DNA of 50,130 nucleotides. It comes from Vulcanimicrobiota bacterium. Lineage in GTDB: Bacteria; Vulcanimicrobiota; Vulcanimicrobiia; Vulcanimicrobiales; Vulcanimicrobiaceae. How positions within the stretch are numbered: the stretch's first letter is position 1; every line of letters starts with the position of its first letter. Positions 5,244 to 49,265 of the stretch are shown in pieces. Under the pieces are notes generated by a model that was not told the DNA's origin, did no database searches, and saw only the letters and a list, made by a program, of their open reading frames with translations. The position numbers and the translations under genes were made by a program. The DNA lies in contig JAQBPK010000102.1 of assembly GCA_028287565.1 (NCBI GenBank), positions 1-50,130 on the forward strand, in the 5' to 3' direction.

Positions 5244-7799
5244 TCACTCCACACGTTTAGCCGAAACCGCGCGCGCTAGGGCCGCAGTGTATCCCTCGAG
5301 CATCCCGCGGACTTCGGTGAAGAGCTCCTCTCTTGTGGCATCACCCGGCAACAGCTCGTTGACGACCGCGTCGAAGCGCACTCCATCGACGGCTTCGACG
5401 GACCTGTGAACCGTCTCATAGGCGTCAGGAATGATATTCTGCGCTTTCGCCCCGAGTTGCGCAAAGCGCCACGCGACGCGTTGGAGCGCGATCGTAAAGT
5501 CGTCACCGGTCAAGAAGGCGAGCATTGCTCCGGCAAAGCCGTGGCAGGCCGCGCCGCGCTCGTCACCCTCATCGCCCATGTAGATAGCAAGGTTGGTATG
5601 CCCGATGCGGGCGCCTGCGTGATCGTGCGTTTCATACGCATATCGGAGAGAGGTTTTCTGCTGTGCGACGGCAGCTCCGACCTGGTGCGCGGCGGAATAG
5701 CAACCGGCGAACGCCGTAAACACGGCCCCCAGCAGTTCCCGGTCCTGCTCTTTTTCCGCAGCCTTGCGGCATTGCCGCAGTTTCCGTAACGCCTGTTCGA
5801 ATCTGCGATGCTTGCCCAACCTGCCGAGTTCAATCAACGGACCGCAGGAATTTACCATCACGCGTGCGACCTCAAGATCCTTCGCGCCGCGCGACCGCAT
5901 GCTCTTGACCAAGCGCTCATTGAACGTTAAGGCATGAGCCCAGTCCCTTTGCGCGATCGCGGCTGCGTACCCCGTGCTCAGCACCACTTCGCGGACGCTC
6001 CATGGGGTGACCAAATCGTCGTTCTCCAACGGAGGGTCGGGAAGGGTTTTCATGCGTGCGACCAATGACTTGGCATCTCGCACAACCTCGTCAAAGCGAT
6101 TGAGCTGTAATAGTGTCTGAATTTGACCGGCTTCGTCGTTGACGCGCGTCCATGGGCCGACCGGCAAAGCGTCCATGAACTCCTTCGTCTGATTGTAATA
6201 TTCCATCGCCATTTCCGGTCGGCCCGTGTCGCGCAGAAGGCGCAAGAGCTCGCTCATAACGATTTTCGTCTGATGAGGGTCTTCTGATTTCACCGCGTCT
6301 TTGAGAGCGCCGCGAATCACGTCCTCTGCTTCGATGAAAGACCGCAATCGAAGCAACACCTTACCGAGCAGGACACGCGCGGCCAACCCATGGGATGTTC
6401 CTGCCAGCGCGGCCGCGGTCGTTCGGACGAGCGGTAAGGTTACCGACAGCGTATACGGTGACGAGTCTCGGTGGACGATCTCCGCAAGCATCGACAGCGC
6501 GACGTTCCACCTTTGAGCGCGCGCTACGTACGGGAACGCCGACAAACCCGCTCGGACGATGACGGCATCCTCACGAAACTCTTTTGGCAATGCGTCGCGG
6601 TGTGCCACCATCTGCGTGAACCAAAACCGGATCATCTCGTGGTCTACGGCATCCCGAAGGTCTGGGCCGGCGCATCCATACCCCGCCTCTGCGAGGCCGG
6701 GATGCAGACGAACCGTGAGGACATCCTCACCCTCCGGGAGTACACACTGGATTAGACCGGCCGTGACGAGTTCCGGGTACATCGCTCTGGGAACCGGTGC
6801 GGACCGAGGCATTTGAAGAAGCGACCAGACGGCGTCCCAGTTTGATTCCAGAATCCACGCTCGACGATCCCGCTCCTGCAGGCAGCACAGAAAAAGGAAG
6901 AACAAACGAGTAGCCGGTTCCAGGTCGTCCGCAATTTGAAGCGCCCACGTAATAAGCTCAGAAAGGAAATGGGCCGATGCCGCGTCCGGCCCATCCACTG
7001 CGAGGAATGCGCCGAGTGCATTGGTGTCGTCTGTCGTACCCTGCGATAACTGTCGTTCCAAGAGCTGCGAGTCCCGTGCTAGGGAGTCGGCGAATTGCAA
7101 CACCCACGGATGTCCCTGTGCGATTCGCGTCACCTGGTACACGAGGGAGCCGTCGTTGTCGTGCCACTCGTCGGAAGTATTCCGCGCCAACCGGTCGAGA
7201 TTCGGCAGCTCATCGACGAGGACCAACTCCTCCTCGACCGTGAGGGCGTTCACTTGAACGACGCGTAAGGGTACGCCGAAATCGCGCGGTCGCGCACGGC
7301 TCGTGAGTACGAGCCGGGACAAACCGCCACTTGCACAGATGGCACTAATTACGATGCTCCATCGGTGGTCCCGCCACTCTCGCGCCGGCGTGAGCAGCCG
7401 TTCAACGCCATCGACAAAAACCAGCGCCGCCATCTGTCTGAAGCACTCGGTTATCCGTTGAACTTGGCCGGGATCGGTATCCATGCGCTCGATGATCTCC
7501 GCCAGCTTGAGGTCGGAAGGGAACGCCGCGCAGCGCGCGTCCAGGCAGTCCGCGAAGTTGCGCAAAGCGACCGTCGGCTCGTCGTCGTCCTCGGGCGCGT
7601 ACCACACGTAGGTATCGAAGCGTCCCGTCTGTTCGAAGTGGTAGGCAAGCTCCAGCGCGCATGCAGTTTTGCCACCGCCCGGCAGTCCGTAGAAGAGCAC
7701 CCCCGCCCAGGGACTCTGCGCAGCGAGTGCGCCGCTGGCGTCGGTCATCACCACGGTACGCCCCCACAAAACACCCCGGTTCCTCAGGGAAACCGGCAA
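5244..7799 (-). CDS. STAND/NB-ARC-type NTPase with C-terminal TPR-like repeats; probable C-terminal part of a CHAT-NTPase-TPR protein
   Basis: Walker A GLPGGGKT, Walker B MAALVFVDGVE, sensor-like LVLTSR, long helical repeat C-terminus; overlaps the CHAT ORF in another frame. Confidence 0.8.
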   Translation of the reverse strand: MPVSLRNRGVLWGRTVVMTDASGALAAQSPWAGVLFYGLPGGGKTACALELAYHFEQTGRFDTYVWYAPEDDDEPTVALRNFADCLDARCAAFPSDLKLAEIIERMDTDPGQVQRITECFRQMAALVFVDGVERLLTPAREWRDHRWSIVISAICASGGLSRLVLTSRARPRDFGVPLRVVQVNALTVEEELVLVDELPNLDRLARNTSDEWHDNDGSLVYQVTRIAQGHPWVLQFADSLARDSQLLERQLSQGTTDDTNALGAFLAVDGPDAASAHFLSELITWALQIADDLEPATRLFFLFLCCLQERDRRAWILESNWDAVWSLLQMPRSAPVPRAMYPELVTAGLIQCVLPEGEDVLTVRLHPGLAEAGYGCAGPDLRDAVDHEMIRFWFTQMVAHRDALPKEFREDAVIVRAGLSAFPYVARAQRWNVALSMLAEIVHRDSSPYTLSVTLPLVRTTAAALAGTSHGLAARVLLGKVLLRLRSFIEAEDVIRGALKDAVKSEDPHQTKIVMSELLRLLRDTGRPEMAMEYYNQTKEFMDALPVGPWTRVNDEAGQIQTLLQLNRFDEVVRDAKSLVARMKTLPDPPLENDDLVTPWSVREVVLSTGYAAAIAQRDWAHALTFNERLVKSMRSRGAKDLEVARVMVNSCGPLIELGRLGKHRRFEQALRKLRQCRKAAEKEQDRELLGAVFTAFAGCYSAAHQVGAAVAQQKTSLRYAYETHDHAGARIGHTNLAIYMGDEGDERGAACHGFAGAMLAFLTGDDFTIALQRVAWRFAQLGAKAQNIIPDAYETVHRSVEAVDGVRFDAVVNELLPGDATREELFTEVRGMLEGYTAALARAVSAKRVE

Positions 7800-8997
7800 T
7801 GCGGACAGGATCGCCTGGTAGCGGGGCCCGTGTCGGCGGTGCGAGCCGCAGCGTCGCCGCGAGACTGCCCACGAGTACCGGCGCAGCTATCGATGCGGTG
7901 TCCGCCACCGCCGGATCTTCGTGTATGAGCGAGCTCAGAACGCTCGGCAAAGCAACAGCCGGCGATTGACCGCCGTTGAGAAGCCGGTCGTACATCGCTC
8001 CCATAAGCGACACCGCGAAGCGGTCATCGACCGCGAATCGCATTGCCAAAACGGCACAGCCCGTTTCTCGAACGAGCGTGCGGGCGATAGACATTTCGGC
8101 CTGTGCAGCGGCCCGCTGCGCAGGCGCATCTCTGCGCTCGTCGTGCAATGCAGCCTCAAGCCCGAGCCGCACGCGCGTTTCTTTGACGACGGCCGCAGCC
8201 GAAAGACATGCGGAGACCGTCACGAGCTTCAAACGCGCCGGCATCGCGAGCAGCTTGACGATCTGGTCGGAACGTATGGAGTCCGCACTTCCGTCAAGAC
8301 GTTCTAGCTCTAACCGACCGGGTTCCCCATGTCCCGAGAAGTGAACGACATCCCAGCCGTCGCCGTCCCCTAGTGCCTCGCCTAAGGTTTGGCGGGTGGT
8401 ACCGTATTGTAGGACACGCAACTCGATGTCCTTACCGCGGCCGCGCATGTCGTGCACAAGGCGGCGCAACGCTTGGCGTTCTCTGCGCAAGTTCAGCGCA
8501 TCCGGCGCAGCTACGCTATAGATCGCCAGAATGCGCAGGCGCCCCGTGACGTCGCGGATATGCGGCGCGTCCAAGCCGTCGCCCAGGATCTGGAAAACGA
8601 AGCCGACGTCCAGCAAGGACAACGGCTCGTCAAAGGCATACGCGATTTCGAGCGGCATGGTCACGAGTCGTTCCGCATTCGGCGGCAGGCAAACGCGAAC
8701 GACGACGGGAGCGCGCTCTGCAATGGCCTCGGCCACCGGTCCAAGCACGTTCGCTCCGAGCCAGCGGCCGACGTCCCGAAGGAGCCGGCGCTCGTCTTTC
8801 CGTTGACGATCCGGCGCTGCAAAGCGGTAGAGATAGTCGGGGAGGCTAAAAATCGCCTCATACTCGGGGATACGTTGATCGAGGGCGACGTGGTGCTCTG
8901 CGATAGACGTACCGGCTTCATCTTGAAGAACCCAGCGCCAAGCTTTGAATTCCTTGAGATTATGCAGGCGCAGGATAAGCGTCCTAGCGTCCGTCAT
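7402..8997 (-). CDS. CHAT-domain (caspase-like) protein; probable N-terminal part of the CHAT-NTPase-TPR protein, with the reading frame lost after about position 7766
   Basis: CHAT His motif VVHFSGHG and Cys motif VTVSACLSA; ends in PEEPGCFVG linker before loss of frame. Confidence 0.8.
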   Translation of the reverse strand: MTDARTLILRLHNLKEFKAWRWVLQDEAGTSIAEHHVALDQRIPEYEAIFSLPDYLYRFAAPDRQRKDERRLLRDVGRWLGANVLGPVAEAIAERAPVVVRVCLPPNAERLVTMPLEIAYAFDEPLSLLDVGFVFQILGDGLDAPHIRDVTGRLRILAIYSVAAPDALNLRRERQALRRLVHDMRGRGKDIELRVLQYGTTRQTLGEALGDGDGWDVVHFSGHGEPGRLELERLDGSADSIRSDQIVKLLAMPARLKLVTVSACLSAAAVVKETRVRLGLEAALHDERRDAPAQRAAAQAEMSIARTLVRETGCAVLAMRFAVDDRFAVSLMGAMYDRLLNGGQSPAVALPSVLSSLIHEDPAVADTASIAAPVLVGSLAATLRLAPPTRAPLPGDPVRIAGFPEEPGCFVGAYRGDDRRQRRTRCAESLGGGALLRTAGRWQNCMRAGACLPLRTDGTLRYLRVVRARGRRRADGRFAQLRGLPGRALRGVPFRPQAGGDHRAHGYRSRPSSTDNRVLQTDGGAGFCRWR

Positions 8998-10241: not shown

Positions 10242-11405
10242 CTATAGCCAATCGCCGAAAGCAGCACGAGCTGCGTATTCTCGCCAAACGTTTAGTAACG
10301 CTGGCCGCATCTCGTCGTCGTTCTCCGCCGCACCTCCCCAGCGCATGAGGTACAGGACCGGATCGATAAATGTCTCTTCGAATGACATTCGCGTAAAGTC
10401 GATGTGAGAAATGGGTAGCGTTCCACCAGTTGGAAGAGGAAATCGACCATGGTGGATGCTCCGATCATTGTAACGAAAAGCCAATGTTGCGCTCACGACG
10501 GGCCCTAGTCCAAGCGCTCGCAGAGTCCACGACGACAAGGCATATCCGCTCGCCATGACGCGAAGGACTTGATATAGCAAATTGTTCCGCTCATCAATAG
10601 GCAAGCGCAGCTCAACATCTCCGCTGGACCCAACGTAGCAGCGGCGGGTCCTTGTCTCGCGATCCGGGTCAAGCCCCTCGATGGGAACATCATGGCGGAA
10701 GAGTACGCCATCCGGTAGCGTCTCGGCGGTCACGTCGCCCTTGTTCAGACCTGGAAGAGTTCGCACCATCTCCTCGATCTCCAATTGCTGTGCGCGGCGC
10801 AGCACGCGAGAGCGCGGTCGTTCGGGCGACAGGCGGATCGCAATAAAGTCTGGCTGCGGAGACGCAGCATCAAAGCGGATTTGGCCCATGGTCTCCGCTG
10901 GGCCGCCCGGCTCCGTGTCTTGCCGGCGGTAAAGCAACGCTTCAAGTTCGCGCAGCGCCAAACCATCGATCTGCGTGCCGCGCCGCACTGGAAAGCGACC
11001 TCGCTCTTCCGTGTACTCATGAGGTGCAATGTCGCTTTCGCCAACGCGCACGATAAGCATAGATTCTTGTCCGCCCGCGCTTTGATAACCAAAGACATCA
11101 ATCGGCACCGTCGGGTAAGCTCGCGCCAGCAATTGACTCCGCAGTCGCCGTCGCGCCGGCTCGTCTACAGCGAGCATAGCATGCGAGGCGCTTAAGGGCA
11201 CCCCATCGGCCGGATCGTTGATTCCAACGACGATTAGTCCGCCCGTGGCATTCGCCATTGCGACAGCTTCCTTTGAAACTTGCTTGTTGTCGAGCTGGGC
11301 CTTGAACTCCAGGCGCTGCGTCTCTTGATTTATCCCGGCAAAGTAGGCAAACAGCTCTTCGTATGTCGACGATTCAAGATTATCAATATCGGTACCGATA
11401 TGCAT
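10242..11405 (-). CDS. AlbA_2/Schlafen-type putative ATP-binding or DNA-binding protein
   Basis: N-terminal ETQRLEFKAQL...EAVAMANATGGLIVVGINDPADGV signature. Confidence 0.8.
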   Translation of the reverse strand: MHIGTDIDNLESSTYEELFAYFAGINQETQRLEFKAQLDNKQVSKEAVAMANATGGLIVVGINDPADGVPLSASHAMLAVDEPARRRLRSQLLARAYPTVPIDVFGYQSAGGQESMLIVRVGESDIAPHEYTEERGRFPVRRGTQIDGLALRELEALLYRRQDTEPGGPAETMGQIRFDAASPQPDFIAIRLSPERPRSRVLRRAQQLEIEEMVRTLPGLNKGDVTAETLPDGVLFRHDVPIEGLDPDRETRTRRCYVGSSGDVELRLPIDERNNLLYQVLRVMASGYALSSWTLRALGLGPVVSATLAFRYNDRSIHHGRFPLPTGGTLPISHIDFTRMSFEETFIDPVLYLMRWGGAAENDDEMRPALLNVWREYAARAAFGDWL

Positions 11406-38504: not shown

Positions 38505-38953
38505 GACGTGCCGCTTGGGCCGCGCTCGCGGTCATCGTCATCGCCGTCCTGTTCTGGGCCGCGCTGAGCCATCGCATCTACAACCACACGCTGCCGCGCG
38601 GTTTCATCGAGCACGTCTTCGGCGAGGACGACAGCGAAGGCGGCGCGCTGGCGGTGCGCGTGCTGCTGCGCAAGCTCTACAGCATTGTCGCGTTCGCGCT
38701 GATCGGCTTCGTCATCGACAAAGCGCTGCCGGGCACGCGCCGCCCGGCGCTGCGCGCGGCGCTGATCGTCGCGGCGTTCTCCGCGGCGATCGAGATCGCG
38801 CAGAAGCTGCACGGCGCGCGCGAAGGGCCGCTGTCCAACGCGATCGACATCGCATGCGGCGCGCTGGGCGGCTGGCTCGCAGTCACCGCGGCGCACGCAC
38901 TGGCACGGCGCCGCGATGCATCGCCTGACCGCGGAGCGCGCCTCGACCTCTGA
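38501..38953 (+). CDS. VanZ-like membrane protein; no ATG/GTG/TTG start seen, so start uncertain
   Basis: Hydrophobic segments, SIVAFALIGFVIDKAL, AAFSAAIEIAQKL...SNAIDIACGALGGWLA. Confidence 0.65.
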   Translation: MRRAAWAALAVIVIAVLFWAALSHRIYNHTLPRGFIEHVFGEDDSEGGALAVRVLLRKLYSIVAFALIGFVIDKALPGTRRPALRAALIVAAFSAAIEIAQKLHGAREGPLSNAIDIACGALGGWLAVTAAHALARRRDASPDRGARLDL

Positions 38954-39034
38954 GCGCCCACGCCGCGGCTGACCGGCAGGACGTCCGAGCCGGAAGTACA
39001 AGCAAGCAGACCGCCGATTCCGAGGTGAACGACC

Positions 39035-40639
39035 ATGGCCGATCGTGCGCGTCTGATGAAAAGCACTCGCGGTCCCGTACCGGGCGCGCGGCGTCTCGGC
39101 GCGACGGACCCGAATCACGTCATCGAGATCACGCTCGTTCTCGAACGAGCCCGCCCGGTCGATCGCGGTGCGGTCGCCGCGATGGCGACGCGGGCGCCCG
39201 TCGAGCGGCGTCACCTCACCTACGACGAGCTCGCCGAACGGCATCATGCACCGGCTGAGGCCGTCGCGGCGGTCGAAGCGTTCGCCCGCGATTTCGGGCT
39301 GCATGCGGAGCAGCTCAACCCGCTGCGCAACACCGTGGACTTGCGCGGACGCGTCGCCGACATGGAGCGTGCGTTCGAGACGCGGCTCGAAGACTACGAG
39401 CACGAGGGCGTTCGGTTTCGCCAGCGCAAAGGCGATCTCACCGTTCCGGACATCATCGCGCCGTACGTTGCGGCGGTCCTTGGTCTGGACGACCGGCCGC
39501 AGGCGCGATCGCATGCACGGCGCGCGGTCGCGCTCGGGCGCGGGTTCACACCGCAGCAGGTCGCGGACCTGTACGACTTTCCGGAATCGGATGGCGCCGA
39601 TGAAACGATCGCCATCATCGAGCTCGGCGGAGCGTTCGATCAGGACGATTTGAACGCGTACTTCACGGCGGTCGGACTGCCCCGGCGCGAGCCCGTGATC
39701 CCGGTGTACGTCGCGGGCGCGCAACCGCATCGGTACGGAGCCAACGCCGACGACGACGCCGAGGTGATGCTCGACATCGAAGTCGCCGGCGCGATCGCAC
39801 CCGAAGCGCGGCTCGTCGTCTACTTCGCGCACAACACCGATCGCGGCTTCTACGAAGCGTTCTCGCACGCGGTGTACGACCGCGAGCACCAGCCGTCGGT
39901 GGTCTCGATCAGCTGGGGCTCGTACGAGGAGTCGTATACCGAGCAGACGCGGCACGCGTTCGACGAGCTCGCTGCGACCGCCGCACTGCTCGGCATCACC
40001 GTCCTGGCGGCATCGGGTGACGACGGCGCATCCGATCAAACGCCGGGTGCGGGCTTCGAGCGCAAGCGACACGTCGATTTTCCCGCCGCCGTGCCGCACA
40101 TCGTCGCGTGCGGCGGAACGAGCGTTCACGCGCGCGAGGGACGGATCGTGAGCGAGACGGTCTGGAGCAACGGCGCGGACGGCGCGAGCGGCGGCGGCGT
40201 CAGCACGACGTTCGGCGTCCCGGCGTGGCAGAACGGGTGCAGCGCCGGCGCGCATCCGCTGACCGGTCGCGGCGTGCCCGACGTCGCGGGAGACGGCGAT
40301 CCCAACACCGGTTACAAGACGTTTCACAACGGCGCGCACGAGGAGCTCGGCGGCACGAGCGCCGTCGCGCCGCTGTGGGCCGGGCTGATCCTGCGCATCA
40401 ACGCGCGGCTGCGCACGCGATGCGGCTTCATCACGCCGCTGCTGTACGGCGCCGCGCGGCAAGCGGAGTTCCGCGACGTCGTCCACGGCGACAACCACTG
40501 CCACGGCGTCGACGGCTACCTCGCCAAACCCGGCTGGGACGCATGCACGGGGCTCGGCAGCCCGAACGGCCCGGCGCTGCTGCGGCTGTTCGCGGGCGAC
40601 GCGGCGCCGCACGACCGCACGCCGGCAGTGGCCCCGTAG
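39035..40639 (+). CDS. S53-family (sedolisin/kumamolisin-like) serine-carboxyl peptidase
   Basis: Pro-kumamolisin N-domain; EVMLDIEVAGAIAPEA, VSISWGSYEES, GGTSAVAPLWAGL. Confidence 0.92.
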   Translation: MADRARLMKSTRGPVPGARRLGATDPNHVIEITLVLERARPVDRGAVAAMATRAPVERRHLTYDELAERHHAPAEAVAAVEAFARDFGLHAEQLNPLRNTVDLRGRVADMERAFETRLEDYEHEGVRFRQRKGDLTVPDIIAPYVAAVLGLDDRPQARSHARRAVALGRGFTPQQVADLYDFPESDGADETIAIIELGGAFDQDDLNAYFTAVGLPRREPVIPVYVAGAQPHRYGANADDDAEVMLDIEVAGAIAPEARLVVYFAHNTDRGFYEAFSHAVYDREHQPSVVSISWGSYEESYTEQTRHAFDELAATAALLGITVLAASGDDGASDQTPGAGFERKRHVDFPAAVPHIVACGGTSVHAREGRIVSETVWSNGADGASGGGVSTTFGVPAWQNGCSAGAHPLTGRGVPDVAGDGDPNTGYKTFHNGAHEELGGTSAVAPLWAGLILRINARLRTRCGFITPLLYGAARQAEFRDVVHGDNHCHGVDGYLAKPGWDACTGLGSPNGPALLRLFAGDAAPHDRTPAVAP

Positions 40640-40725
40640 TCATCAAACCACCGCGGGGAACCGCGCTATGGGCTCGAACCGCCGTGGAGGACCTCCAAAT
40701 CACGTCCCGGAATGCGCCAGACCAA

Positions 40726-40749
40726 CCAACCAAGACCTATGATGGTTGG
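40726..40749. promoter_or_regulatory. 7-bp inverted repeat CCAACCA-N10-TGGTTGG upstream of terD1, enclosing TATGAT
   Basis: Perfect arms plus an extra direct half site (CCAACCA at 40722-40728). Confidence 0.4.
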
Positions 40750-40799
40750 GGCAGCTTTGTATGACAAGTCCGGGCTTGTCGGTGCGCGGAGGAGTGAAG

Positions 40800-41360
40800 A
40801 TGTCGATCGACCTGCAGAAGGGTCAGCGTCTGGATGTCGGCCTGAGCAAGATTCACGTCGGCTTAGGTTGGGATCCGGCGGAAGGCAAGAGCAATTTCGA
40901 CTACGACCTCGATGCATCGGCCTTTATGCTGGGCGCGAACAAGAAACTGGTAACCGATCAATTCTTCGTCTTTTACAACAACAAAGTATCGCCTGACGGT
41001 GCGGTAGCAGCCGGCGAGGACGATCAGAGCGGAACGTCGACCGCGGGCGGCGACGACGAGACGATCGACATCGACCTCGACCGCGTCGACCAGCGCGTGC
41101 AAGAGATCCTCATCTGCGTCTCGATCCACGAGGCGCAAGAGCGCCGGCAGAACTTCGGCCAGGTCGGAAACGCCTTCATCCGAATCGTGAACGGGCAAGA
41201 CAACGTGGAGCTCGCGAAATACGAGCTGGCGGAAGATTTCAGCGTCGAGACGGCCGTCGAGTTCGGGCGGCTGTACCGGCGGGAAAGCAAATGGCGTTTC
41301 GAGGCTGTCGGGATCGGTTACCGCGGCGGCCTCAACGAGCTCGTAAACAGGTACCAATAG
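40800..41360 (+). CDS. terD: TerD-family protein 1
   Basis: LQKGQRLDVGLSKIHVGLGWD...FDYDLDASAFMLGANKKL, DDETIDIDLDRV. Confidence 0.9.
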   Translation: MSIDLQKGQRLDVGLSKIHVGLGWDPAEGKSNFDYDLDASAFMLGANKKLVTDQFFVFYNNKVSPDGAVAAGEDDQSGTSTAGGDDETIDIDLDRVDQRVQEILICVSIHEAQERRQNFGQVGNAFIRIVNGQDNVELAKYELAEDFSVETAVEFGRLYRRESKWRFEAVGIGYRGGLNELVNRYQ

Positions 41361-41389
41361 GCTCTGGTCTTCGAAGGGGACGAATCACA

Positions 41390-42025
41390 ATGCGACGGTT
41401 GCCAGTCTATCTCGTGCTCGACACGTCGGGTTCCATGTCGGGTGAACCGATCGAAGCGGTGAAGGTCGGCGTTCAAGCTCTCGTGTCGGCTCTGCGCGCC
41501 GACCCCTATGCGCTCGAGACGGTGTTCCTCAGCGTGATCTCGTTCGGCAGCCAGGCGAATCAGACGGTTCCGCTCACCGAGCTGATGGCGTTTCAAATGC
41601 CGGAGCTCAAAGCCAGCGGATCGACGTCGCTCGGTGAGGCGCTCGCGCTCGCCGCGGACCGGATCGGGACCGAGGTGCAGAAAACGACGACGGACTCCAA
41701 GGGCGATTGGAAACCCCTCGTCTTTCTGATGACGGACGGCGGCCCCACCGACGACTGGCGCAAAGGGCTGGCAAAATTCAAAGGGGCGAAGACCGGGATG
41801 GTCGTTGCGTGTGCCGCCGGCAGCGCAGCGGACACCACGGTGTTGCGCGAGATCACGGAATCGGTGGTTCAGCTCGACACCACGGATTCGTCCGCCATTC
41901 GAGCGTTTTTCAAATGGGTTTCGGCGAGCGTGGCCGTCGGAAGCCAGAAAGTGGATGGAGGCGGCGAGGTGAAGACCATTCAAGAGCTGCCTCCGCCGCC
42001 GGCCGAAATCAACGTCGTCGCTTAG
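41390..42025 (+). CDS. TerY-like von Willebrand factor A protein 1
   Basis: MRRLPVYLVLDTSGSMSGEPIEAVKVGVQALVSALRADPYALETVFLSVISF; MIDAS DxSxS. Confidence 0.9.
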   Translation: MRRLPVYLVLDTSGSMSGEPIEAVKVGVQALVSALRADPYALETVFLSVISFGSQANQTVPLTELMAFQMPELKASGSTSLGEALALAADRIGTEVQKTTTDSKGDWKPLVFLMTDGGPTDDWRKGLAKFKGAKTGMVVACAAGSAADTTVLREITESVVQLDTTDSSAIRAFFKWVSASVAVGSQKVDGGGEVKTIQELPPPPAEINVVA

Positions 42026-42034
42026 GAGGCAGCC

Positions 42035-42673
42035 GTGCCGATCACCCTCTCCAAAGGTCAAAGCATCAACCTCGCAAAGTCCACGTACGACCTCTCTCAC
42101 GTAACGGTTGGGCTCGGATGGGACGTGGCGGAGCCCAGCAGCGGCGGCGGCTTCATCGGCAAGCTCTTCGGCGCGAAACCGCCCGAAGAGTACGATCTGG
42201 ACGTCATCGCCTTTCTTCTCGGCGCGAACGGGAAGGTCGTGAACCGCGGCGATACCAAGCTGCAGGGCGGCGACGTCATCTTCTTCAACAATCTCAAGCA
42301 CCGCTCGGGCCGGATCTGGCTGACCGGCGACAACCGCACGGGCGCCGGCGACGGCGACGACGAGCAGATCATCGTCGACCTGAACGGACTCGATCAGCAG
42401 TACCAGCAGATCGTGTTCGTCGTCCAGATTTATCAGGGCCAGCAGCGCGGGCAGCACTTCGGTGCGGTCAAGAACGCCTACATTCGCGCGGAGGATGCGC
42501 GCGGGCAGGAGATGGTTCGCTTTTCGGTCTCGAACGACCCGGAGTTCTCCGGAAAGCGCTCCATGATCTTCGCCGAGGTCGAACGCAGCGGTGCGAACTG
42601 GAAGTTCCGGGCCATCGGAACTCCGTACGAGTCGGACTCGTTCGTCGACATTCTGCGAAATACGTATCTCTGA
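42035..42673 (+). CDS. terD: TerD-family protein 2
   Basis: LSKGQSINLAKSTYDLSHVTVGLGWDV...YDLDVIAFLLGANGKV. Confidence 0.9.
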   Translation: MPITLSKGQSINLAKSTYDLSHVTVGLGWDVAEPSSGGGFIGKLFGAKPPEEYDLDVIAFLLGANGKVVNRGDTKLQGGDVIFFNNLKHRSGRIWLTGDNRTGAGDGDDEQIIVDLNGLDQQYQQIVFVVQIYQGQQRGQHFGAVKNAYIRAEDARGQEMVRFSVSNDPEFSGKRSMIFAEVERSGANWKFRAIGTPYESDSFVDILRNTYL

Positions 42674-42703
42674 GCGATCACCGAAGATACGTGCGATGAT
42701 CTG

Positions 42704-43339
42704 ATGCGTCGGTTGCCCGTCTATCTCCTGATCGACACGTCAGGCTCGATGCGTGGCGAACCGATCCAATCCGTCAACGTCGGAATGGAGAGCCTGATCG
42801 CCTCGTTGCGCCAGGACCCGAACGCGCTCGAAAGCGTGTACGTCAGCATCATCACGTTCGATCGCGAGGTGAAGGTGCTGGTCCCGCTCACCGCGTTGGA
42901 CGAATTTCAATTGCCGGCGATCCAAACTCCGGAGTCCGGACCGACCCACCTCGGCCGGGCTTTGGAAGTGCTCTGCACCCAGCTCGACTCCGAGCTCATC
43001 CAATCGACCCCCGACCGCAAGGGTGATTGGCTGCCGCTGATGTTCGTGATGACGGACGGTAGCCCGTCCGATCTCGCGCTGTTCAACGCGCAGGTCGCCG
43101 AGATCCGCCGCCGGCCGTTCGGTCAGATCATCGGCTGCGCGGCCGGCCCCAAGGCGAGGCATCAATATCTCAGCGAGTTCTGCTCGTCCGTCGTCAGTCT
43201 GGACACGACCGACAGCTCCACCTTCATCTCGTTCTTCAAGTGGGTTTCTCAAGCGGTTACGATCGGCAACCGAAGCCTCGGCGCCGCGGCGGGGATGACC
43301 CTGCCGCCCCCGCCGGCTGAAGTTCAGATGGTCGTCTAA
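42704..43339 (+). CDS. TerY-like vWA protein 2
   Basis: MRRLPVYLLIDTSGSMRGEPIQSVNVGMESLIASL. Confidence 0.9.
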   Translation: MRRLPVYLLIDTSGSMRGEPIQSVNVGMESLIASLRQDPNALESVYVSIITFDREVKVLVPLTALDEFQLPAIQTPESGPTHLGRALEVLCTQLDSELIQSTPDRKGDWLPLMFVMTDGSPSDLALFNAQVAEIRRRPFGQIIGCAAGPKARHQYLSEFCSSVVSLDTTDSSTFISFFKWVSQAVTIGNRSLGAAAGMTLPPPPAEVQMVV

Positions 43340-43349
43340 AGGACTGCAG

Positions 43350-44381
43350 ATGGTCATACGGCGTCTCCCCATCTTTTTCGTGCTCGACGTTTCCGAGTCC
43401 ATGGTCGGTGACAGCCATGCACGGCTCGAGGAAGGACTCGGACGCGTGGTCATGCATCTTCGCACGGACCCGTACGCGCTCGAGACCGCGTTCCTGTCGG
43501 TCATCGTGTTTGCCGGCAAAGCAAAGACGCTGCAGCCGCTCACGGAGCTGGTCGATTTCAATGCGCCGGCGCTGCCCGTCGGAGGCGGAACCGCGTTGGG
43601 AGCCGCGCTCGATCACCTGATGAACGAGCTCGATGCGAGCGTCGTGCGAAGCAGCGCCGACCGCAAAGGCGATTGGCGCCCGATCGTGTTTCTCATGACG
43701 GACGGGCACCCAACCGATGATGCCGCGCCTGCGATACGGCGCTGGCAGGAACGGTGGCGCGGCCGCGCCCATCTGGTTGCAATCTCGGTGGGCGACGCCG
43801 CCGATGCACGCCTGCTCGCCGGTTTCGCGGACGACGTGCTGATTCTCGAAGACGTGGGTGAGGCCGGCTTTGCGGGATGCATCAAATGGATCACGCAATC
43901 GATATCGGCGAACAGCCGGCCCATGGAAGGCGGCTCGGGCGAGTTCCGGCCGACGGAGCTCGGAGCCGCGCTCACGAAGTTCGACGTCGGCAAAGGTCCG
44001 CCGCCGGGCTCTCGGATCGACGACCGGTTTGCCGTCTTCACGGGCCGCTGCCAGCGCAGCCGCGCGCCGTATCTGCTGAAGTTCGAGCAGATCGCGAGCG
44101 GCCCAACCGCGGGGAGATTCGAGCCCGCCGGCGGCTATACGCTCGCGGAGTCGTTCTTCGAGCTTTCCGACGCAAGTGCGCCGGCCGCTACGCTATCCGA
44201 CCGCGACCTGACCGATTACCCGCCGTGCCCGAACTGCGGCAGTCTGTACAGCCTCTCGAAATGCAGCTGCGGACAGGTCCACTGCACCGACGGTCCCGGC
44301 GTCTATACGTGCCCGTGGTGTGCGGTCACGTCAACGTATGAAACGACTGAATCTTTGAGCTTCGACCGAGGTCGCGGATGA
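43350..44381 (+). CDS. vWA protein 3 with C-terminal zinc-ribbon (TerY-C-like)
   Basis: RRLPIFFVLDVSESMVGDSHA; C-terminal CPNCGSLYSLSKCSCGQVHC...CPWC. Confidence 0.88.
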   Translation: MVIRRLPIFFVLDVSESMVGDSHARLEEGLGRVVMHLRTDPYALETAFLSVIVFAGKAKTLQPLTELVDFNAPALPVGGGTALGAALDHLMNELDASVVRSSADRKGDWRPIVFLMTDGHPTDDAAPAIRRWQERWRGRAHLVAISVGDAADARLLAGFADDVLILEDVGEAGFAGCIKWITQSISANSRPMEGGSGEFRPTELGAALTKFDVGKGPPPGSRIDDRFAVFTGRCQRSRAPYLLKFEQIASGPTAGRFEPAGGYTLAESFFELSDASAPAATLSDRDLTDYPPCPNCGSLYSLSKCSCGQVHCTDGPGVYTCPWCAVTSTYETTESLSFDRGRG

Positions 44382-45676
44382 TGGACTCAAGGCCCGCGGA
44401 CCAGCCGGTGAACGACAGTCCCAAAGAGCCTGCCAGCGAACCGGCAGCAATACCGCCGGCCGGCGAAAGCAGGAAGATCAGCCTGCCGAACGCGGCCGTC
44501 GGGCGCGACTACAAAGCACAGATCGATTTTACCGCCGCGCCGGGCACGGTGGTCGCGGACGCGACGGCGACCGGCCTGGACGAGCTGGGACTCCGTTTCG
44601 ACCCGGTGACGTTCGCCGTCGACGGATCGCCCGGGAAGGCCGGCGATTTTCCGTTCTCATTTCGAGCGGCGCTGCAAGAATCGGCGGGCCCCAAACGGGT
44701 GCTCGAGCTGGTGGGGGTGCTCACGGTCAATCCGGATCCGAAGTCGCTTTGGCGCGATATCGCAAGCGATCCGGCGGGCCGCTTCGCCAAGCCCGACGAC
44801 GAGTGCCGCTCCGCCACCGCGGACGGAACGCTTGTCGTCGGCGCGAGCCGCCGCGGGCGCTCGCACGCGCACGAGGGCAAGTATCGCGACGACGAGTTCG
44901 GATTTCGCCTCGTTGCCGACGGCTGGTGGCTCATCGCCGTTGCGGACGGCGCGGGCAGCGCCGCGTTTTCGCGCCGCGGCTCGCAAGTCGCGATCGAAGT
45001 AGCCCTCGACAAGCTCGAAGCGCTCTTGCCGCTGCACGGCAATGCGGCGCTTTTCGATGCCGCACTGAAGGTGAAGGGCGGCGACGAAGCGGCTCAACAC
45101 GCCGTCAAGAGGCGGCTCTACCAGGTGCTCGTTCGCGCCGCTCACGCGGGCGCCGTTGCCATCGAGTCCGAGGCTGCGCGCGAAAACGAGCCCGCGCGGG
45201 CGTTTGCCAGCACGCTCATGCTCGCGATATACCGGAAGATCGAGGGCTCCCACTTCTTCGCCGCGTTCGGAATCGGGGACGGAGGCATCGCGCTCTTGCG
45301 CCTCGACGACAACGAAGTGATACCGCTGAACGAGGCGGACGCGGGCGAGTACGCCGGGCAAACCCGATTTCTGACGACGACGGAGTTCGCCTCGGCCGAG
45401 CGCGCGTTCGCCCGGCTGCGCGTCGCATGCGTCGACCGGTTCACGGCGCTGGTTCTCATGACCGACGGGGTGTCCGATGCAAAGCTGGAGACCGATGAGG
45501 CGTTCGGAGATGTCGGGCGCTGGCGCGAGCTTTGGGAGCGCGACGTGGCTCCGGCCCTGCACGCGCAAGGTGAGGATACGACCGCCGAGCAGCGGCTACT
45601 AAGCTGGCTGGACTTCTACACGCCGAACAATCACGACGACAGGACGCTCGCGATTCTGCTGCCCGCCACGTCATGA
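44378..45676 (+). CDS. PP2C-type phosphatase with N-terminal Ig-like domain
   Basis: N-terminal LPNAAVGRDYKAQIDFTAAPG...GLRFDPVTFAVDGSPGKAGDFPFSF; PP2C motifs VADGAGSAAFS, GIGDGG, MTDGVSD, HDDRT. Confidence 0.85.
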   Translation: MMDSRPADQPVNDSPKEPASEPAAIPPAGESRKISLPNAAVGRDYKAQIDFTAAPGTVVADATATGLDELGLRFDPVTFAVDGSPGKAGDFPFSFRAALQESAGPKRVLELVGVLTVNPDPKSLWRDIASDPAGRFAKPDDECRSATADGTLVVGASRRGRSHAHEGKYRDDEFGFRLVADGWWLIAVADGAGSAAFSRRGSQVAIEVALDKLEALLPLHGNAALFDAALKVKGGDEAAQHAVKRRLYQVLVRAAHAGAVAIESEAARENEPARAFASTLMLAIYRKIEGSHFFAAFGIGDGGIALLRLDDNEVIPLNEADAGEYAGQTRFLTTTEFASAERAFARLRVACVDRFTALVLMTDGVSDAKLETDEAFGDVGRWRELWERDVAPALHAQGEDTTAEQRLLSWLDFYTPNNHDDRTLAILLPATS

Positions 45677-47175
45677 ACACGGTTCGCATCAAATCTCACG
45701 ACGGCGTCCCCGTCGAGTTCCTCGAGGGTGAGCCCAAGCAAGGAGGGATGAAGGACGTCTTCTTCAGCCCCGACGGCAAGCAAGTCGTCGCGTTCTTTCG
45801 CGATCGTCTGGATCCCGCCGGCCGCGATCGCATCGCGGCGATCGTAGGCCCGTATCGGGAGCGCATCTTCAACCAGCAGGGTGGCGACTACTGGAAAGAT
45901 ATCTTTTGCTGGCCTTCGGGGATCGTCGAGTTTCAAAACCGAACCGGCATCGTCGTTCCCGCCTATGCACGGCACTTTTTCTTCGAGTACGGTTCGAAGA
46001 ACGGTGACTTTCTGCATATCAAGGGCAAGGAAAAGCTCGGCAAGTGGTTTACGTCGGCCTCGAACCGCAACAAGTACCTGGACCCGCGCGAGAAGGGAAC
46101 GTGGCTGAGCTATCTGCGGCTCTGCATTCTCATGAGCCGCGGCGTCAAGCGTTTGCACGCGGCCGGTCTCGCGCACTCCGATCTCTCCTACAATAACGTC
46201 CTCGTCGACCCCGCGGGCGGACACGTCTCGATCATCGACATCGACGGTCTGGTCGTGCCGGGCAAATATCCGCCCGACGTCGTGGGAACGCCCGATTTTA
46301 TCGCGCCCGAGGTCATGGCGACGCTGCACCTGTCGAAAAACGATCCGGCCCGGAAGCTGCCGTCGATAGCGACGGACCGGCACGCGCTCGCGGTGCTGCT
46401 GTACATGTATCTCTTGTGCCGTCATCCGCTGCGCGGCAGCAAGGTGAACGATCTCGATGCGATGCGGGACGAATCCTTGACCATGGGGGAGCGGGCACTT
46501 TTCATCGAGCACCCTACGGACCGCTCGAACAGGCTGCGGTTGGATCAAGTACGGCCGTCCGATTTGCCGTGGGCCGACACGGCGAAGCTTCCGTACACGA
46601 TCACCGGCCCGCTGCTCGCACCGTTGTTCTTGGAAGCCTTCACGAGCGGCCTCACCGATCCCAGTAAGCGCCCGAGCGCCGACACCTGGGAGAGAGAGCT
46701 AGTGAAAACGATCGATCTCGTGCAGCCGTGCGCGAATCCGACGTGCGAGCTCAAATGGTACGTGTTCGACAATACGACGAAGCCGGTCTGTCCGTTTTGC
46801 GGCACCGCGTACGCCGGTAAGCTCCCGGTCCTCAATCTCTATTGGTCCCGCAAGGCCGGTACGTGGCAGCCGGAGGGCCACCGCGTCATGGTCTATAGCG
46901 GACAGTCGCTGTTCGCTTGGCATAGCAGCCGCAACGTCTTTCCGAGCGAGCGGCTCACGCCCGAGCAGCGCAAACGCGTCGGCTACTTTCAATTCCATCA
47001 GGGCAGTTGGTATCTCGTGAACGAGGCGCTTCCGGGGCTCAAGGAGTTGGACAGCGGTGGATCGCAGCGCCCCATCCCGATCGGAACGCACGTCGAGCTC
47101 AAAGACAACCAACGACTTCTCTTGTCGCCGGAGGAAGGAGGCCGGTTGGTCTCCGTGCAGATGGCCGGCGGCTGA
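45673..47175 (+). CDS. Protein-kinase-like protein with zinc ribbon and C-terminal FHA-like region
   Basis: HSDLSYNNVLVD catalytic loop, IDIDGL, GTPDFIAPEV, TDRHALAVLLYMYL; CANPTCELKWYVFDNTTKPVCPFCGTAY. Confidence 0.85.
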   Translation: MNTVRIKSHDGVPVEFLEGEPKQGGMKDVFFSPDGKQVVAFFRDRLDPAGRDRIAAIVGPYRERIFNQQGGDYWKDIFCWPSGIVEFQNRTGIVVPAYARHFFFEYGSKNGDFLHIKGKEKLGKWFTSASNRNKYLDPREKGTWLSYLRLCILMSRGVKRLHAAGLAHSDLSYNNVLVDPAGGHVSIIDIDGLVVPGKYPPDVVGTPDFIAPEVMATLHLSKNDPARKLPSIATDRHALAVLLYMYLLCRHPLRGSKVNDLDAMRDESLTMGERALFIEHPTDRSNRLRLDQVRPSDLPWADTAKLPYTITGPLLAPLFLEAFTSGLTDPSKRPSADTWERELVKTIDLVQPCANPTCELKWYVFDNTTKPVCPFCGTAYAGKLPVLNLYWSRKAGTWQPEGHRVMVYSGQSLFAWHSSRNVFPSERLTPEQRKRVGYFQFHQGSWYLVNEALPGLKELDSGGSQRPIPIGTHVELKDNQRLLLSPEEGGRLVSVQMAGG

Positions 47176-47182
47176 CCGTCGT

Positions 47183-48241
47183 CTATGCGGCGGCGTCGCG
47201 CCTGTTCGCGGCGGTGGCGGAGTGGAACGCGGCACCGATCAGCAGCGCACCGATGAAACCCGTCACGATGTCCGGGATCTCATAGCGCACCGACGCCAAC
47301 ATGATACCGGCCAGCACCGCGATCGCCCAGTAGGCTCCGTGCGAGAGGTACCGGTACTCGGCCAACTTCTCGTTGTCGACGAGCCAGATCGTCAGCGACC
47401 GCACGAAATAGGCTCCCGTACCCAGGCCGAACATGATGAGCGGCAAGCTCGTCGTGATGGCGAACGCGCCGATCACGCCGTCGAAGCTGAACGAAGCGTC
47501 GAGCAGCTCGAGGTACAGAAAGCCGGCCACCGAGGCGCGGACGATCTTCTGCCCGGCCTCCGCCTCCTCGCCGCCGAGCAGCGTGCCGAGTCCCTTTGAA
47601 GCGATGAACGCCATGACGCCGAGTACGCCCGCGAGCTCGAACCCCGCGCGCTGCGGTTCGGGTGCGACGAAATGGGCGACGACGAGAACGGTGCCGAGCG
47701 TGATCAAGCCTTGGATCGCTTCGATTTGCCCGAGCGCCGTCAGCCGCGCTTCGACCGGGCCGATCCAGTGGTCGTCTTTCTCGCGGTCGAGAAAGAAGCC
47801 GAGCGCGATCATCAGCAAGAACGCCCCGCCGAAGGCCTCGACGAGATATTTCGAGCTCGTCAGCTGCGCGGCGTATTCCGCCGGATGCCGGAATGCGAGG
47901 TCCACGACGGCGCCGAGGCTCTGCGCCGACGCCAGCGCGACGATGAGGATCGGGAACAACAGCCGCATGCCGACGACGGCAACGAGGATACCAAAGACGA
48001 GAAAGACGCGGCGCCACTTCGCGTCCCAGTGCTGCAGGATCGTCGCGTTGACGACCGCGTTATCGAACGAGAGGCTCACCTCTAGCACCGAGAGGATCGC
48101 GACGAGCGCGAGCGCGGCGAACCCTGCCTTGAGGCCTCCGGTGACGTAGCCGTACGCGAAACCCGCGAGCAGCATGATCGCGGTAACGACGAATGAGCCG
48201 GTAAAATAGCTCAAAGTCGTACGACGTGCGGAGAGCGCCAT
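47183..48241 (-). CDS. DUF475/TerC-family integral membrane protein
   Basis: LSVLEVSLSFDNAVVNATILQHW ... LELLDASFSFDGVIGAFAITTSLPLIMFGLGTGAYFVRSLTIWLV. Confidence 0.9.
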   Translation of the reverse strand: MALSARRTTLSYFTGSFVVTAIMLLAGFAYGYVTGGLKAGFAALALVAILSVLEVSLSFDNAVVNATILQHWDAKWRRVFLVFGILVAVVGMRLLFPILIVALASAQSLGAVVDLAFRHPAEYAAQLTSSKYLVEAFGGAFLLMIALGFFLDREKDDHWIGPVEARLTALGQIEAIQGLITLGTVLVVAHFVAPEPQRAGFELAGVLGVMAFIASKGLGTLLGGEEAEAGQKIVRASVAGFLYLELLDASFSFDGVIGAFAITTSLPLIMFGLGTGAYFVRSLTIWLVDNEKLAEYRYLSHGAYWAIAVLAGIMLASVRYEIPDIVTGFIGALLIGAAFHSATAANRRDAAA

Positions 48242-48305
48242 AGAGGTTCGGCTTCTCGGGTATCGCGCCGTCCCCCTTCGCTTACATACTGGTGTTGGGC
48301 TAGCG

Positions 48306-49265
48306 CTAATCGCGGCCTGCGAGGACCGGCGTCGGGACCGTGCGCCCCTCGACGAACGCGATGAGGTTCTCCGCGGCCAGCATCGCCATGCGGGCGCGCG
48401 TCTCGACGGTTGCGCTCCCGACATGCGGGACGATGACGACGTTCTCGTGCAGCGCGAGCGGGTGGTCCGGCGGGAACGGCTCGGGATCGGTGACGTCGAG
48501 CGCCGCGCCGGCGATCTTCTTCTGTTCGAGCGCGCGCAGCAGCGCATCGGTATCGACGACCGCGCCGCGCGCGACGTTCACCAGCGTCGCCGCCGGCTTC
48601 ATGCGCGCGAAGGTGTCGTCGCCGAACATTCCGCGCGTCTCGTCGGTGAGCGGCACCAGCAGGACGATGCAGTCCGCTTCCGCGAGCAACGCGTCGAACG
48701 GGCGGTACGACGCGCCGGTCGCCGCGTCGTCGGCGCGCGGGTTGCGGTTCGTGTAGACGACGCGCATCCCGCTGACCTGCGCGCGCTTCGCGACCGCGAG
48801 GCCGATCTGCCCGAAGCCGACGATCCCGAGCGTCGAGCCTTCGAGGTCGTGGCCGAACGGCATCTGCTCGTGCATCCAGCGGCCGGAGCGCACGTAGCTC
48901 AAACCGGCCGCGAGATTGCGCACGGCGAAGATGACCAGCGCGTACGTCAGGTCGGCGACCGCCTCCACCAGCGAGCCGCTCGTGTTGGTAAGGATGATCC
49001 CGCGCGCCGCAAGCGCGGCGACATCGACGTTATCGTAGCCGACCGACCACGTCGCGACGATGCGGAGCTGCGGCGCCGCGTCGAGGAACGCAGCGTCGAT
49101 CGGGATGTTCGAGCTCACCAGAACGCCGAGGGCGGTCGCTAGCGGACCTGGCCACTCGTCGCGCGGGCGGTCGGAAACGTCGGTGACGTCCGCATGCGCG
49201 CGCAGGCGCTCGACGACAGCGTCGGGGATGCGCGTCGCGACGACGAGGTGCCCCCGTTCCATCAA
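48306..49265 (-). CDS. D-2-hydroxyacid dehydrogenase (glyoxylate reductase-like)
   Basis: STLGIVGFGQIGLAVAKRA, VNVARGAVVDTDALLRAL, VIVPHVGSATVETRARM. Confidence 0.92.
   Translation of the reverse strand: MMERGHLVVATRIPDAVVERLRAHADVTDVSDRPRDEWPGPLATALGVLVSSNIPIDAAFLDAAPQLRIVATWSVGYDNVDVAALAARGIILTNTSGSLVEAVADLTYALVIFAVRNLAAGLSYVRSGRWMHEQMPFGHDLEGSTLGIVGFGQIGLAVAKRAQVSGMRVVYTNRNPRADDAATGASYRPFDALLAEADCIVLLVPLTDETRGMFGDDTFARMKPAATLVNVARGAVVDTDALLRALEQKKIAGAALDVTDPEPFPPDHPLALHENVVIVPHVGSATVETRARMAMLAAENLIAFVEGRTVPTPVLAGRD

Follow-up and report, generated by a model that had tools for sequence, protein, structure and literature searches.

Judged by gene order and sequence similarity, the eight genes at positions 40800 to 48241 of the window (the whole 50,130-nt stretch of DNA analysed here, from a Vulcanimicrobiota bacterium) are a compact and unremarkable example of a tellurite-resistance-type stress operon common on bacterial plasmids, and the interest of the locus lies mainly in the active site of its kinase. 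Our preferred reading, with a probability of roughly 0.7, is that this compact Ter locus was acquired horizontally and acts as a phospho-switch on the assembly of TerD and von Willebrand factor A (vWA) proteins at a TerC-family membrane protein. Based on sequence comparison, the identity as a Ter locus and its horizontal transfer are almost certain.

Gene content and genomic setting of the locus

Seven co-directional genes on the + strand encode a TerD protein, a vWA protein, a second TerD protein, a second vWA protein, a vWA protein with a TerY_C domain, a PP2C phosphatase and a kinase with a zinc ribbon, and a DUF475/TerC gene runs convergently towards the kinase gene, with 7 nt between the two stops (47183 and 47175). 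Intergenic gaps of 26, 9, 30 and 10 nt are followed by two 4-nt overlaps (TerY3/PP2C and PP2C/kinase), a spacing of 9-30 nt or less that makes a single operon likely, and all eight reading frames of the Ter set (operon plus DUF475) are intact. The features are as follows.

38880..48323 (approximate edges), no strand: acquired island with the kumamolisin-type peptidase, the Ter operon and DUF475 (empty sites in relatives; GC)
39035..40639, + strand: kumamolisin-type serine peptidase, pro-kumamolisin plus S8 (Pfam; island borders)
40800..41360, + strand: TerD1, TerD-family protein (Pfam PF02342, 3e-67; PDB TerD 2kxt, 3.9e-48)
41387..42025, + strand: TerY1, vWA protein with intact MIDAS (PF00092; slot tree and motif check)
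42035..42673, + strand: TerX, TerD-family protein with GTG start (PF02342, 4.9e-56; best-hit order; PDB TerD 2kxt, 9.4e-36)
42704..43339, + strand: TerY2, vWA protein with intact MIDAS (PF00092; slot tree)
43350..44381, + strand: TerY3, vWA protein with C-terminal TerY_C metal-binding domain (PF15616, 3e-26; conserved Cys pairs; slot tree)
44378..45676, + strand: PP2C phosphatase with N-terminal Ig/cadherin-like domain (PP2C_2 PF13672, 4.6e-37; motifs; family profile)
45673..47175, + strand: Ser/Thr-kinase-like protein (Pfam Pkinase, 9.5e-10; AF2 model; motif counts)
48241..47183, - strand: DUF475/TerC-superfamily membrane protein (PF04332, 1.2e-91; PF03741, 6.9e-18)

Pfam domains and coordinates thus bear out the gene order given by an earlier sequence-only reading, including the convergent DUF475 gene; no further TerC-family gene was found in the assembly. 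The intact MIDAS motifs that it reported were likewise recovered, with DxSxS, T and D kept in all three vWA proteins by motif check, as were the invariant catalytic motifs of the PP2C protein (DGAGS, GDG, TDG.SD and DDRT). Its statement that TerA and TerB are absent also holds, as the best-hit gene-order comparison placed no TerA in the window and the TerB family had no match anywhere in the assembly (84% complete), so that the locus is not a complete tellurite-resistance terZABCDE operon. The phosphatase additionally carries, at about residues 38-118, an Ig/cadherin-like domain whose family profile matches the SraP adhesin domains 4m03/4m00; such an N-terminus is unusual for a cytosolic phosphatase and was absent from the earlier reading.

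A tree of 42 vWA proteins separated the slots into one group each, with support of 98/93 for TerY2, 100/100 for TerY3 and a modest 95/64 for TerY1, and by this comparison the three vWA slots are orthologous one-to-one with those of other Ter loci. TerY1 of the window is 70% identical to that of an IncHI2A plasmid, and the branches of TerY2 and TerY3 are long. Gene order, vWA slot orthology and the TerD and TerC-superfamily partners all place the set in the TerY/X/PP2C/kinase block of Ter loci. Searches with tblastn found TerY3 in 2,290 plasmid records and the kinase in 2,320, the latter mostly at 60-80% identity, while a genome scan yielded 80 loci. Among 87 loci (flanks of up to 10 kb), which were chosen by kinase similarity so that the counts describe this sample and not all Ter loci, a best-hit gene-order script found the six-gene block TerY1-TerX-TerY2-TerY3-PP2C-kinase contiguous in 43 and PP2C and kinase adjacent in 85. 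The identical order occurs on Aromatoleum, Polaromonas, Enterobacter IncHI2A, Moraxella and Caballeronia plasmids, and in Azospirillum TerX is missing at the corresponding place in the block. DUF475/TerC and TerD accompany the six genes in six loci (L010, L016, L064, L075, L078 and L079), and inside longer loci in two more (L006 and L024), with genera including Nitrosomonas, Caballeronia and Andreprevotia. The 'expanded' architecture proposed from the letters alone was therefore rejected, as the order is that of the standard Ter-locus block.

The operon is part of an island of ~9.4 kb, flanked on one side by a VanZ-like gene and on the other by one for a 2-hydroxyacid dehydrogenase. Two relatives of the same genus have the empty site: in L111 the flanks at window positions 38879 and 48323 are only 92 bp apart, and in L106 those at 38886 and 48346 only 240 bp. 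GC content is 61-68% within the island and 61-65% over most of the operon, whereas the left flank has about 71% and the right flank 68%. In the host phylum, DUF475 was detected in 1 of 148 genomes and the kinase in only 2 of 149; the present locus extends the range of compact Ter islands to this phylum. The nearest kinase found is alphaproteobacterial (69% identity) and the other kinase within the phylum is only 52% identical; the latter (L094 in G057, of another family) is an independent Ter kinase, the second in the phylum and a divergent one. In the kinase tree the window copy falls, on a long branch of its own, inside a 12-row and mostly alphaproteobacterial group (support 99/94). Instead of being invariably chromosomal housekeeping genes, an outcome the sequence-only reading had named as counting against it, the homologues are plasmid-borne or sporadic. 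Carriage by a phage was rejected, since phage records gave one weak partial match and viral contigs one weak fragment. No direct or inverted repeats were found inside either island-edge stretch, each scanned singly and not edge against edge, and the window contains no tRNA and no Rfam family.

Other features of this region deserve mention. In L107 and L110, again of the same genus, the two genes that flank the island enclose different sequence, about 1.2-1.4 kb long, and this may therefore be a hot spot of insertion. The best same-genus homologues of the kumamolisin-type peptidase that shares the island (39035-40639) are about 47-49% identical and located elsewhere. Further away on the - strand, a CHAT-domain protein (7402-8997) overlaps a long TPR-like frame (5244-7799), a possible CHAT protease/TPR pair at window positions 5244-8997, and a Schlafen AlbA_2-domain protein is encoded at 10242-11405.

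The kinase active site

The sequence-only reading had described the catalytic motifs of the kinase as present, and two corrections apply: the canonical VAIK lysine is missing, and the catalytic loop HSDLSYNN has Asn at a position that is otherwise Lys or Arg. Across 56 aligned family members the beta3 lysine is absent (VVAFF; F/L41, F/Y42) and K27, at the start of beta2 (G[GAS][ML]KDV), is invariant, as are D170, N175 and D189 in these sequences, which span several phyla. DFG is replaced by D[IVL]D in 56/56, and the catalytic loop reads HSDLSY[KR]N. An AlphaFold2 model of the kinase (pLDDT 88.9) places beta2 at residues 27-31 and beta3 at 37-42. The alignment and the model together thus show the lysine-migrated, WNK/POMK-like pattern of a missing beta3 lysine and an invariant lysine at the start of beta2. 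In the alignment with E. coli YegI (22% identity), YegI has Gly in place of K27 and Lys in place of F41, which is consistent with a lysine that has moved in the Ter kinase family. Sequence matches to solved WNK structures cover the C-lobe only and leave the N-lobe unaligned, so the lysine was placed using the alignment of the family, the strand limits predicted by the model and the comparison with YegI; a full-length fold search returned generic kinases only.

WNK and POMK are active with the lysine shifted from beta3 to the start of beta2 or the Gly-rich loop, and POMK, which has DLD for DFG, depends on its lysine at the beginning of beta2 (PMC5142810). A POMK-like loss of the alphaC acid was rejected, as E/D52 is retained in 54/56 sequences. 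From these residue patterns it is fairly probable that the Ter kinase family is active by means of its beta2 lysine.

The copy in the window is less regular than its family. Position 174 is Lys or Arg in 55/56 aligned kinases and Asn in the window copy alone (K174N), which might be a genuine change or an assembly error at this codon. Overall the window kinase departs at nine otherwise near-invariant positions, K174N included, compared to a median of three, and K22 stands where the Gly-rich loop normally has its first Gly. K174N and the eight other departures make the activity of this very copy uncertain; going by its sequence, activity could be low or absent, or the assembly could contain an error here.

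C-terminal to the kinase domain follow a zinc ribbon (about residues 353-376) and an FHA-like domain (about residues 378-500). When residues 378-500 were modelled separately (pLDDT 91.4), almost all top Foldseek matches were FHA domains (best E 8e-4, probability 1.00, TM about 0.5). The FHA-like character suggested earlier is hence supported at the level of the fold; Pfam FHA remained silent even at E 5, and the canonical phosphothreonine-binding motif is not recognised. That Ter-locus kinases are an active family which moved its ATP lysine from beta3 to beta2 and uses DxD, convergently with WNK and POMK, with the FHA-like domain reading its own or a partner's phosphorylation, has in our view slightly better than even odds.

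Proposed mechanism and alternative readings

The phospho-switch on TerD/vWA assembly is our best reading in view of the YegI/PphC precedent and of a membrane complex centred on TerC that has been proposed in the literature (PMC8115787). E. coli YegI is reported to autophosphorylate and to be dephosphorylated by PphC (PMC13232886), and by analogy the Ter kinase and PP2C probably act as an opposing pair that would form a reversible switch. The kinase would bind ATP through the lysine shifted to beta2, the solution used by WNK and POMK, and the FHA-like domain might dock a phosphorylated or otherwise modified partner, either the kinase itself or a vWA or TerD protein. The switch would then determine how TerD and the metal-binding vWA proteins assemble on the DUF475/TerC protein in the membrane; this control, again proposed by analogy, is more tentative, and we put it somewhat short of an even chance. 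Such an assembly could adjust divalent-metal or envelope homeostasis under stress. In Klebsiella, TerC is reported to contribute to tellurite and zinc resistance (PMC12054061). Points that speak against this mechanism are the departures of the window kinase at conserved sites, the unrecognised phosphothreonine-binding motif of the FHA-like domain, and the distance of YegI, which is 22% identical and has its lysine at another place.

Alternatively, the protein could be a genuine pseudokinase that serves as a scaffold, its FHA-like and zinc domains organising the vWA and TerD proteins, with other kinases supplying the phosphates on which PP2C acts. The absent beta3 lysine and the Asn at catalytic-loop position 174 of the window copy fit this view, and Table 1 of a 2025 review (PMC12599244) places the Y. 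pestis member Yegi1 (VVA-, HSDLSYKN, DVD) among the pseudokinases. However, the invariance of K27, D170, N175 and D189 would be unusual for a non-catalytic fold, the kinase nearly always adjoins a PP2C gene, and WNK and POMK are active with the same lysine shift, so we regard a pure scaffold as rather unlikely. The locus might also be a decaying acquired copy with little function in its host, as could be read from the long branches of its kinase, TerY2 and TerY3, the departures of the kinase at conserved sites and the missing TerA, TerB and biosynthetic genes; yet the frames, PP2C motifs and MIDAS motifs are kept, and compact sets without TerA and TerB recur elsewhere, which renders decay improbable.

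Phage defence, in the manner of the TerY-P triad of Gao et al., is a possible function that sequence-based family membership does not support. The locus is mobile and sporadic and has the same three protein classes as TerY-P, which is reported to be active against T7-like phages (PMC7699616), but the PADLOC TerY models gave no match even at lax thresholds, although the library includes the TerY model PDLC02224. Tested TerY-P systems carry an OB-fold C-terminal to the kinase (PMC11090510), where the window kinase has its zinc ribbon and, by Foldseek, an FHA-like fold. Membership in the Gao-type antiphage TerY-P group was rejected on these two grounds. Moreover, no confirmed defence gene adjoins the locus and the accompanying TerD and TerC genes point to the Ter branch, so we consider an antiphage role to have a low probability.

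If the kinase is active, the preferred phospho-switch could be probed by changing one residue at a time (K27, D170 or D189) in a homologue from a plasmid, and the sequence-based pseudokinase label would need correction for a family found on thousands of enterobacterial plasmids. An ordinary locus thereby sharpens the old question of what Ter systems do.

Comparison with known systems

The Ter block of IncHI2A and of Klebsiella/Enterobacter plasmids matches the window in its six genes, their order and their strand, with orthologous vWA slots and a kinase about 62-63% identical to that of the window; the window differs in having one TerD and DUF475 where the plasmids have a separate terZABCDE operon and biosynthetic genes. 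The compact loci of a Caballeronia plasmid (L010), Nitrosomonas (L016), Caballeronia hypogeia (L075) and Andreprevotia (L079) contain the same eight genes, but DUF475 is upstream and co-directional there and downstream and convergent here.

The TerY-P triad named by the sequence-only reading (Anantharaman 2012; Gao 2020; CoCoNuT-associated) shares vWA, PP2C and Ser/Thr kinase with the window, and its CoCoNuT-linked form also the C-terminal zinc ribbon, whereas three vWAs, two TerDs, the FHA-like domain and the lack of a restriction or antiphage partner and of a PADLOC match set the window apart. The sequence-only reading is partly supported: the window carries the Ter vWA, PP2C and kinase set with TerD and a TerC-family membrane protein, this set is not the antiphage triad of Gao et al., and the phospho-controlled assembly and the response to phage or chemical stress that were put forward are conjectural. 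E. coli YegI-PphC-YegL is likewise a kinase, PP2C and vWA gene set, but without TerD and TerC, and the distantly related YegI has its Lys in the beta3 region (VAKI) and none in the Gly-rich loop. As in WNK and POMK, the Lys of the Ter kinase family lies outside beta3 (where beta2 begins or within the Gly-rich loop), and POMK has the DxD motif too, although those kinases are eukaryotic and of unrelated context, and the Ter family, unlike POMK, keeps E/D52 in alphaC.
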